This document shows positions 11,934 to 36,419 of a DNA stretch of 64,000 bases, piece after piece. Both the position numbers and the translations under genes were made by a program. Each line of letters begins with the position of its first letter. Within the stretch, counting starts at the first letter, position 1. This stretch comes from Dehalococcoidia bacterium. GTDB taxonomy: Bacteria; Chloroflexota; Dehalococcoidia; Lucifugimonadales; Australimonadaceae. The notes beneath the pieces are model-generated. The model saw only the letters and a program-made list of their open reading frames with translations. It had not been told where the DNA came from and ran no database searches. Location of the stretch: the NCBI GenBank assembly GCA_022820645.1, contig JAJEFD010000009.1, positions 1 through 64,000 of the forward strand. Reading direction: 5' to 3'.

Positions 11934-12031
11934 GGGAGTGGATGGGTCCCGGTGGGTCTCGCGGTCTTCAAAACCGTTGCCGGGCCAGCTTCCTGGTTCG
12001 GGGAGGGTTCGACTCCCTCGCACTCCCGCCA
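11934..12031 (+). tRNA. selC: tRNA-Sec (anticodon TCA), encoded CCA
   Basis: GGGAGTG/CACTCCC acceptor; 6-bp D-stem with CGGT loop; anticodon arm GCGGT-CTTCAAA-ACCGT; ~9-bp extra arm CCGGGCCAG/CTGGTTCGG; T arm GAGGG-TTCGACT-CCCTC; G + CCA. Eighth acceptor pair looks like G-G. Confidence 0.9.
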
Positions 12032-22630: not shown

Positions 22631-22686
22631 AGGGATTGGGGCCGTCACTCCAGCGGAGGCTGGAGTCCAGGGGTGGGCGGTGGGTC

Positions 22687-22730
22687 TGTCATGCCGAGCG
22701 TAGCTGAGGCATCTCTCGGGAGGCAGGCTG
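22687..22730. repeat. Partial copy of a dispersed TGTCATGC(C/T)GAGCG repeat
   Basis: TGTCATGCCGAGCGTAGCTGAGGCATCTCTCGGGAGGCAGGC, resembles 35136-35250. Confidence 0.6.
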
Positions 22731-24074: not shown

Positions 24075-24199
24075 CACCAGGCACCGCCCGACGCCACCCC
24101 GGTTCACCCCCATCCCTGCATCAAGCGCGGGGCAGGCTCTAACCTTCCCCCGTCGATGGGGGAACTTTCCCCACCGCGTGACCTGCCCCGTCACTCTGA

Positions 24200-24218
24200 A
24201 TTCCCGCGGTGCGGGAAT
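24200..24218. repeat. dRS3-like palindrome ATTCCCGC-N3-GCGGGAAT
   Basis: Perfect 8-bp arms; related to 35357-35376. Confidence 0.65.
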
Positions 24219-24436
24219 GACGGGGGGTGCGCCCTCGCACTTCTCATACACCCGCACGCTTATCGCATTGAGGGACGCGCTTCGGTGCCGGAGAATCGGT
24301 TGCCAACATAGGTTCACTCACGGTTCGCCCAGTCCCCCACGGCGGACCAGGCGGGTGGCGCAGGGGCCTGAAGAGCGAGCCCCTGCGGCATCCGAACATA
24401 CGATCCCGACGCGAGTTCCGTGTCCCCAGGAGCAGC

Positions 24437-33893: not shown

Positions 33894-36419
33894 TCACTCA
33901 CCTGCGGCACCGCTCTCGAACATCTGCGTGACCGTGGCATCGTCGAGGCCTATGACCTCGGAGAGGACGTAGCGCGTGCCTTCGCCGAAGTCGGGGGCGG
34001 ACGCCGACGGGAAGTGCGGCTCCGCGTCGCTCAGGATGAACGGCGCGCTCTCCACGACACCACCATCCGGGAAGCGGCGGTAGAAGCCCCGGCTCGCCAT
34101 CTGCGGGTCGTCGTCGATGAGCTGTCCGGCGTGCAGCACCGGACTCGCGGCGACGCCCGCCGCTTGCAGCGCCTCCGCCGCATCGTGCGGGCCGCGCCGT
34201 GACGTCCACGCCCCGATGGCCTCGTCAATCTCGTCGTGATGGGCCATGCGGCCTGCGGCGTCGGCGAAGCGGTCGTCGTCGGCCCAGGCGTCGCGTCCGA
34301 TGAGGCGGCAGAGCGCGGCCCACTCCTCGTTCGAGGCGACGGTGAGGGCGCACCATTGGTCGTCGCCGTCGCAGCGGTAGACGCCCTGCGGCGCGAGGTG
34401 GCTGGAGCGGCTGCCGGTGCGCGCGGGCTCCGCGCCGTTCGCCTCGTACTCCAACAGCGCGGGGCCGAGGTAGTTGATAGTGGACTCCAACTGGCGGAGC
34501 TCGATGTGCTCGCCGAGGCCGGTGACGTTGCGCCGATGGAGCGCCGCGAGCAGCGCGACGAGCGCGTGGCCCGCATTGCAGGTCGTGTCGGCGTAGGCGA
34601 AGCCGACGTCTGTGATGTCGCGGTGGGGGTAGCCGATGAGGCCGTCGAGCGCGGCGCGGGCCTGGAAGTAGGAGCCGAGCCCCTTGTAGAGGCGGTGCGG
34701 GCCGGTCTTGCCGAGCGCGGGCATGCTCATGGTGATGATGCGCGGGTTGATCTCCGCGAGGCGCTCCGGCGTGAAGCCCCAGTTCGGCAGCACGTCCGGC
34801 CCGAAGTTGTCGACGACGACGTCGCTACGCTCGACGAGCCGCACGATGGCGTCGCGCGCCTCCTCAAAGCCCATGTCGAGGGCGAGCGAGCGCTTGCCGA
34901 CGTTGAGGTTGTTGAAGCTGACGACGGAGTCCGGGCTCATGTTGCCGCGGTTGAGGGCGGCGCCCTTCTTGAACCGCTCGACCTTGATGACCTCCGCGCC
35001 GTAGGCGGCGAGCCACTTCGTGTGCAGCGGCCCCGCGATGACCCACGTGAAGTCGCAGACGCGCAGGCCCGCGAGGGGGCGTGCGGCTCCCTGCGCTGTG
35101 TCACCCTCACCCGCGCCTCGCTCCCCGCCGCCGGTTGTCATGCTGAGCGCAGCCGGAGGCGTAGTCGAAGCATCTCTCGGGAGACGTCTGGAAGCACGGC
35201 CTGCCGCCTGAGAGATTCCTCGGCTTCGCTGCGCTCCGCTCGGAATGACATCCTCCGCCTCGCCCAGGGCGGGGGCGGGCGCCCCCTCGCGGAGGCCGCC
35301 GGTGAAGCGGTAGGGCGGGCCGGCGTCGGTGAGGGCTGCGCCGTCTTGGGGGTTGGATTCCCGCCTTCGCGGGAATGACGATACAGGGTGGGCGATGGTG
35401 CGGAAGAAGCCCTCGCCCGCGAGCTGGGGGTCGGTGGTGAGCTCGCCGACGCTGTTGAAGGCCATGAGCATGATGCCCCGGCCCTGCGCCTCGTGCATGA
35501 GCGTGCGGGCGTCCATCGTGCGGAAGAAGCGGTCGAAGACCGGCTCCAGCTCGTTGAGCCCCGCCGTGCGCGCCGCCGGGTCGAGCCAGCGCTCGTCCCG
35601 CAGCCCCTCGCCGTGGCCGTGCGACTCGAGCCAGTCCAGCAGCAGGGGCCACTCGCGGTCGGAGCTCTGGCTGAGCAACTGGAAGCGGACGAGGCCAGGG
35701 TTGCACTCCCAGATGCGGCGGTAGCGCTTGCCGCTGGAGCCCTGGCCGTGCCCCGCGCGCTTGATGAGCGTCCTGTGGGTCACGTACATCGGCATGACGT
35801 CGTACTGCATGAGCGCGATGCCTTCCTGCAGTGACACGTCCACGAAACCGCCTTCGCCGGTGGCGTCGCGTCGCGCGAGCGCGAGCAGGATGCCTCCCGT
35901 CGCATGCGCCGAACTCTGGTGGTGCGCGAAGCCCTCGCCCATGCTGTTCGGCGGGTCCTCGGGGAAGCCCATGCGATACATCAGGCTGCCCGCCGCCTGC
36001 GCGACGAGGTCGGACGACTTCCAGCCCGCGCGGGGCCCGCTCGCCCCGAAGCCGGAGATGCGCGCGTGGAGCAGGCCGGGGTTGACGGCGCGCAGGGCGG
36101 CGTGGTCGAGCGAGGGGGAGGACTCGTCCTCGATGAGCACGTCCGCCGACGCCACGAGCCGCTCGAACGTGTCGTATCCCTCCGGAGTCCCGCGGTCGAG
36201 CACGACGCTCTGCCTGCCGCGGTGGAAGTGGAGGAAGTGCAGGCTTACCGACGGGTCGTCGTGCAGGAACGGTGGAAGGCGGCGCTCCTCGGAGCCGCCG
36301 GGCGGTTCGACGTCGAACACGTCGGCGCCGAGGTCGGCGAGGAGTTTCGCGCAGTACGCGCCGCGCTCACCCGTCAGGGCGATGACGCGGATGCCGTCGA
36401 GCGGGGACGAGATCAACAC
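33894..36419 (-). CDS. Double-domain CaiB/BaiF CoA-transferase, two fused copies joined by a repeat-derived linker
   Basis: Domain 1 SSPLDGIRVIALTGERGAYCAKLLADLGADVFDVEPPGG; domain 2 RPLAGLRVCDFTWVIAGPLHTKWLAAYGAEVIKVERF; linker contains SSFPRRRESNPQ and VIPSGAQRSRGISQ; exact start (GTG 36419 or TTG 36416) uncertain. Confidence 0.82.
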   Translation of the reverse strand: MLISSPLDGIRVIALTGERGAYCAKLLADLGADVFDVEPPGGSEERRLPPFLHDDPSVSLHFLHFHRGRQSVVLDRGTPEGYDTFERLVASADVLIEDESSPSLDHAALRAVNPGLLHARISGFGASGPRAGWKSSDLVAQAAGSLMYRMGFPEDPPNSMGEGFAHHQSSAHATGGILLALARRDATGEGGFVDVSLQEGIALMQYDVMPMYVTHRTLIKRAGHGQGSSGKRYRRIWECNPGLVRFQLLSQSSDREWPLLLDWLESHGHGEGLRDERWLDPAARTAGLNELEPVFDRFFRTMDARTLMHEAQGRGIMLMAFNSVGELTTDPQLAGEGFFRTIAHPVSSFPRRRESNPQDGAALTDAGPPYRFTGGLREGAPAPALGEAEDVIPSGAQRSRGISQAAGRASRRLPRDASTTPPAALSMTTGGGERGAGEGDTAQGAARPLAGLRVCDFTWVIAGPLHTKWLAAYGAEVIKVERFKKGAALNRGNMSPDSVVSFNNLNVGKRSLALDMGFEEARDAIVRLVERSDVVVDNFGPDVLPNWGFTPERLAEINPRIITMSMPALGKTGPHRLYKGLGSYFQARAALDGLIGYPHRDITDVGFAYADTTCNAGHALVALLAALHRRNVTGLGEHIELRQLESTINYLGPALLEYEANGAEPARTGSRSSHLAPQGVYRCDGDDQWCALTVASNEEWAALCRLIGRDAWADDDRFADAAGRMAHHDEIDEAIGAWTSRRGPHDAAEALQAAGVAASPVLHAGQLIDDDPQMASRGFYRRFPDGGVVESAPFILSDAEPHFPSASAPDFGEGTRYVLSEVIGLDDATVTQMFESGAAGE
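35136..35250. repeat. MITE-like dispersed element (~115 bp) inside the CoA-transferase gene
   Basis: Ends TGTCATGCTGAGCG... and ...CGCTCGGAATGACA form imperfect terminal inverted repeats; partial relative at 22687. Confidence 0.65.
35357..35376. repeat. dRS3-like palindrome ATTCCCGC-CTTC-GCGGGAAT inside the CoA-transferase gene
   Basis: Perfect 8-bp arms; translates in frame as SFPRRRESN. Confidence 0.75.

Follow-up and report, generated by a model that had tools for sequence, protein, structure and literature searches.

The CoA-transferase gene and its two inserts

The window, that is, the whole stretch of 64,000 nucleotides analysed here from a Chloroflexota genome (G000), contains on its minus strand an open frame of 841 codons that runs from a GTG at 36419 to a stop at 33894. 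The encoded CaiB/BaiF protein is matched twice by the CoA-transferase family III profile (PF02515, E=8.8e-150; Pfam), and the frame stays unbroken through two palindromic repeats. The first-pass annotation had described two in-frame palindromes in an open double CoA-transferase gene, and both the frame and the coordinates are borne out. It had put the smaller palindrome in domain 1, where it does lie; more precisely, it occupies the loop of a beta-hairpin towards the domain's end. The larger one, a 115-bp element, had been placed between the domains and is found there, but the interdomain insert also contains a further repeat-like tract. The features are listed below.

33894 to 36419, minus strand: fused double family III CoA-transferase gene, also fused in orthologs
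35262 to 36407, minus strand: domain 1, BbsE-like (best PDB match 9fn0 chain A, E=6.7e-37)
35349 to 35390, minus strand: site-1 insert of 42 nt (14 codons) that contains the small repeat, from DNA and protein alignment with the orthologs of genomes G003, G004 and G005; the site is empty in G004
35354 to 35380, minus strand: small repeat, a CGTC-1 REP of 27 bp, read as SFPRRRES
35136 to 35250, minus strand: 115-bp MITE-like imperfect palindrome of a genome-wide family, at the domain junction (residues 390-428)
35210 to 35250, minus strand: left arm of the element, TGTCATTCCGAGCG...GAATCTCTC
35136 to 35178, minus strand: right arm of the element, GAGAGATGC...CAGCATGACA, from coordinates and extracted copies
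35085 to 35135, minus strand: remaining linker TGGGERGAGEGDTAQGAAR, which, as read from the sequence, partly resembles a third, GGTGAGGG-type dispersed tract
33897 to 35084, minus strand: domain 2, BbsF-like (best PDB match 9fn0 chain B, E=1.9e-64)

Both PDB matches lead to the benzylsuccinate CoA-transferase BbsEF (9fn0/9fol). The putative catalytic aspartate of domain 2, D611, aligns with D178 of chain B in the 9fn0 alignment, and a D178-CoA adduct is named in the title of entry 9fol. Domain 1 holds no aspartate at the matching position. Based on the chain matches and on the placement of the aspartate, the best reading of the 841-residue protein is that of a BbsE-BbsF-like heterodimer in a single chain, domain 1 resembling the non-catalytic and domain 2 the catalytic subunit. 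BbsEF itself consists of two subunits, whereas the window protein is one polypeptide.

An AF2 model built from 34 aligned homologs has a mean pLDDT of 86 and a pTM of 0.90, with both domains largely above 90. The segments below 50 include residues 352-355 of the small repeat, in a loop between two strands, and residues 401-443 of the element and the rest of the linker. Both inserts lie in the least confident stretches of the model, which is consistent with disorder but is not proof of it, since sequence without homologs also yields low pLDDT.

Two dispersed repeat families

On the coding strand the small repeat reads CGTC-ATTCCCGC-GAAG-GCGGGAAT-CCA, that is, a CGTC tag, an 8-bp stem beginning with a complementary AT, a 4-nt loop and a CCA tail. 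In all four parts it agrees with CGTC-1 as defined by Di Nocera et al. (2013; PMC3733652), who equate CGTC-1 with the dRS3 repeat of Neisseria and with RPE-6 of R. conorii, and RPE-4 with CGTC-4. Their survey lists CGTC REPs in five phyla, with Chloroflexi absent from the list, whereas the repeat of the window belongs to Chloroflexota.

Both repeats had been proposed to be dispersed, and the genome counts agree. In the 2.75-Mb genome there are 69 copies of the exact REP pattern as compared to 0 for a reversed-pattern control; the element arm occurs 78 times at no more than one mismatch, again vs. 0 in the control, and a 301-bp query stretch gives 53 BLAST matches. CGTC REPs are present in all six genomes of the genus examined and in G007, which belongs to a different genus in the family; the nine other family members examined have none. 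Exact copies number from 35 to 613 per genus member. The 613 copies of G001 lie in one 2.5-Mb contig and are strongly clustered.

Mobilisation of the REPs by a RAYT was considered and rejected, because no Y1_Tnp gene (PF01797) was matched in G000 or in G001 with its 613 REPs; G003 has one partial match. In having no RAYT found, too, the repeat is like the CGTC-1 superfamily including dRS3. An Rfam search of the 64-kb window returned tRNA-Sec and one other tRNA only, leaving the repeats unmatched. The selenocysteine tRNA lies at 11934-12027 (69.9 bits).

The larger repeat has the features of prokaryotic MITEs: it is small, multicopy and non-autonomous, has no ORF of its own, and carries terminal inverted repeats of the TGTCAT...ATGACA kind. 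Two-armed copies are mostly of ~100-130 bp; their arms, TGTCAT(T/G)C(C/T)GAGCG...CATCTCTC or GAATCTCTC, are conserved and the centre varies. The predicted fold is strong on either strand, about -48 to -55 kcal/mol. The element differs from typical MITEs in its unconserved centre, in the many single-armed copies in the genome, and in that neither a parent IS nor a target-site duplication was identified: no arm pair at IS spacing occurs among the genome arm matches with no more than one mismatch, and no duplication is evident by eye in the flanks of extracted copies. In the open-access literature searched, we found no published description of its terminal motif in a related context. A third repeat family, giving PLPEGEG / SLEGRGRAESAGEGE peptides, is also visible.

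In-frame copies in other genes

Five of the six REP frames are free of stops (RHSREGGNP, VIPAKAGI, SFPRRRES, WIPAFAGMT and DSRLRGND), and the sixth contains a stop. All five are used in conserved genes, four in G000 and the fifth in G003, which argues that what selection would keep is the frame of the host gene and not a particular peptide encoded by the element. A special coding compatibility of the repeats finds little support, since their frame openness is close to that of shuffles (REP, 5/6 vs. 4.7/6; element, 2.6/6 vs. 1.9/6). Stop-free frames are common at 66% GC.

A census based on fixed patterns and a rough codon model, which covers pattern-matching copies, placed 8 of the 158 G000 repeat zones in frame inside coding sequence. 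They are spread over seven ORFs; six of these are credible, among them the CoA-transferase gene. The earlier suggestion that the repeats entered with the ORF left intact, in the manner of Rickettsia palindromic elements, is supported. The other five encode an HTTM/VKGC protein, CTP synthase, a 2-oxoacid dehydrogenase E2, an F420 reductase-like protein (these four with Pfam matches) and a terminase-like protein that has no Pfam match and is conserved in genus mates. The CTP synthase gene is present in a single copy, as judged by one full match in the genome:

G000 contig C8, 44669-46525: CTP synthase (L053) with a tandem 57-bp in-frame REP insert, read as DSRLRGND

The insert is missing in 10 of 11 relatives; in G003, a REP in the same loop is read in another frame, as IPAFAGMT. 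The insert of the F420 reductase-like protein, ~50 residues long, is absent in G005. In both proteins the REPs lie inside single domains, and with the CoA-transferase these are the genes for which orthologs lacking an insert are shown. The repeat of the HTTM/VKGC protein lies between its two Pfam domains; genus mates have no full homolog that could show an empty site.

In G000 the linkers of E2, a dihydrolipoamide acyltransferase, hold four REPs. Those of G003, G004 and G005 have REPs as well, and every one of these copies is read in the VxPAxAG frame; the G001 linkers lack REPs. In G000 (contig C9, near 303 kb) these linkers also carry three SLEGRGRAESAGEGE-type repeats, and they are hypervariable across the genus. 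In the terminase-like linker of G004, two REP-like peptides and two from element arms directly follow one another. The terminase-like family (L081 on G000 contig C9, near 22 kb, and L220-L227) has repeat-filled central linkers and is multicopy in genus mates, with at least eight members in G001. Of 65 REP zones sampled in G001, two were flagged as in frame, and neither makes a convincing gene; a high copy number by itself therefore does not lead to many intragenic copies.

Age of the fusion and origin of the linker repeats

The orthologs in G004 and G005, of the same genus, each consist of one fused ORF whose product shares 91-92% identity with the window protein. G004 lacks both the 42 nt with the site-1 REP and the 115-bp element, and a short REP of its own occupies the domain junction. 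In G005 the site-1 REP is present; of the element there is just the left arm, at a site identical to that in G000. REPs occupy both places in G003, where the linker is out of frame beside poly-C runs of 13-17 nt; together with a partial duplication these runs break the frame of the fused gene, through assembly error or real decay. The G002 contig stops at a palindrome partway through the linker, whose readable first part holds REP-like sequence. The four linkers readable end to end (G000, G003, G004 and G005) thus show four different repeat combinations between conserved flanks, and three of them, all except that of G003, are in frame. Among more distant homologs, four (L017, L018, L029 and L031) are fused by ordinary repeat-free linkers, and several others consist of adjacent gene pairs with stops between them. 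The homolog in G007 is a fused double CoA-transferase whose interdomain linker includes the REP-derived sequence SFPRKRES.

As judged from these sequences, the fusion predates the repeats and the 115-bp element did not create it, since there are fused orthologs of the same genus without the full element and distant fused homologs without repeats. A concatenated tree places G004 outside (G003,(G000,G005)) with support of 82 and 75; single-gene trees differ. The concatenated topology agrees, if weakly, with the site-1 REP and the element having been gained later, and at this support gain and loss are not cleanly separated.

It is highly probable, in our judgement, that the repeats multiply, are mostly purged from genes, and survive as in-frame additions to linkers and loops, in this case of an already fused enzyme. 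A BbsE-BbsF-like CoA-transferase would have been a single chain with a long exposed tether between its domains before two families of small mobile palindromes, the CGTC-1 REP and the MITE-like inverted repeat of ~100-130 bp, multiplied in the genus. We assume that some enzyme mobilised them, though no RAYT match was found in G000 or G001. Most insertions into genes would be purged, and the survivors would be copies whose codons, once translated, keep the frame and lengthen a linker or loop harmlessly. The tether of the CoA-transferase would have gained, lost and exchanged copies independently in each species.

Protein-coding palindromes have been described as a peculiarity of Rickettsia, and intragenic REPs are listed mainly in Proteobacteria. 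Like the Rickettsia palindromic elements RPE-1, RPE-4 and RPE-6, the repeats reported here are small dispersed palindromes that lie in frame in unrelated genes and add codons. Apart from the phylum, the Chloroflexota REP differs in being read in five frames, in its position at domain linkers and loops, and in the minority of copies that are intragenic. In-frame intragenic REPs have already been described in several species (PMC3733652), and a 2024 review of MITEs recounts the Rickettsia findings and raises the possibility of similar events elsewhere (PMC10969869). Given the fit to CGTC-1, the survey without Chloroflexi and the element motif for which no publication was found, this is therefore the RPE principle in another phylum, together with a second element whose description we did not find and with several frames in use. 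Such a related system in uncultured Chloroflexota offers, in its sequenced relatives, a natural experiment in which one gene has sites that are filled, half-filled or empty. The single-copy CTP synthase with its insert adds to this. With such a system one can test how frequently selfish DNA turns into protein, what frames persist and whether insertions usually land in linkers.

A more far-reaching reading, which we consider unlikely, would see the REPs and MITE-like palindromes of the genus as continuing raw material for linkers. The surviving frame would then depend on the protein, Pro/Ala-rich VIPAxAGI in the swinging-arm linkers of E2 and others elsewhere, and selection would use selfish DNA to set the length and composition of tethers.

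Somewhat less probable again is that the frame is open by chance, with domain 2 translated from its own internal start and the repeats effectively intergenic. High GC does keep frames open, REPs prefer intergenic space (PMC3733652), the G003 linker is frameshifted, and an ATG (M429, in ...CAGCATGACA) lies inside the right arm of the element. However, G000, G004 and G005 all keep the two domains in a single frame although their inserts differ in length, no clear Shine-Dalgarno sequence is seen by eye upstream of the M429 ATG, and two products are implausible for the REPs within the single domains of CTP synthase and the F420 reductase-like protein.

The strong fold of the element, and the fact that REPs are known RNA elements (PMC3733652), could suggest palindromes kept as RNA hairpins that regulate or process the mRNA between the parts coding for the two domains. 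This is quite improbable: repeat position and type differ between species, G004 having only a short REP, there is no conserved RNA structure at the linker site, and the CTP synthase copies are missing from nearly all relatives. Misassembly of the repeats appears more improbable still. The genomes with named records are all MAGs (three of Chloroflexota/Chloroflexi bacterium, one of SAR202 cluster bacterium), and both the contig terminating at a palindrome in G002 and the poly-C tracts of G003 would fit it; against it, two separate genomes, G000 and G005, have the left arm at the identical site, frames are kept and flanks align at ~90%. The least probable explanation is the first-pass proposal that the larger repeat joined two separate CoA-transferase genes, suggested by its place at the domain junction and by the separate adjacent ORFs of several more distant relatives: fused relatives without the repeat, which that annotation had itself named as counterevidence, do exist, and the proposal is already refuted unless every fused ortholog of the genus once had the element and lost it.

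Isolate names suggest that the relatives with named records come mostly from sponges. More REP-like and element-arm sequence is found in the window at 22644-22705 and 24197-24221, outside clear coding sequence.
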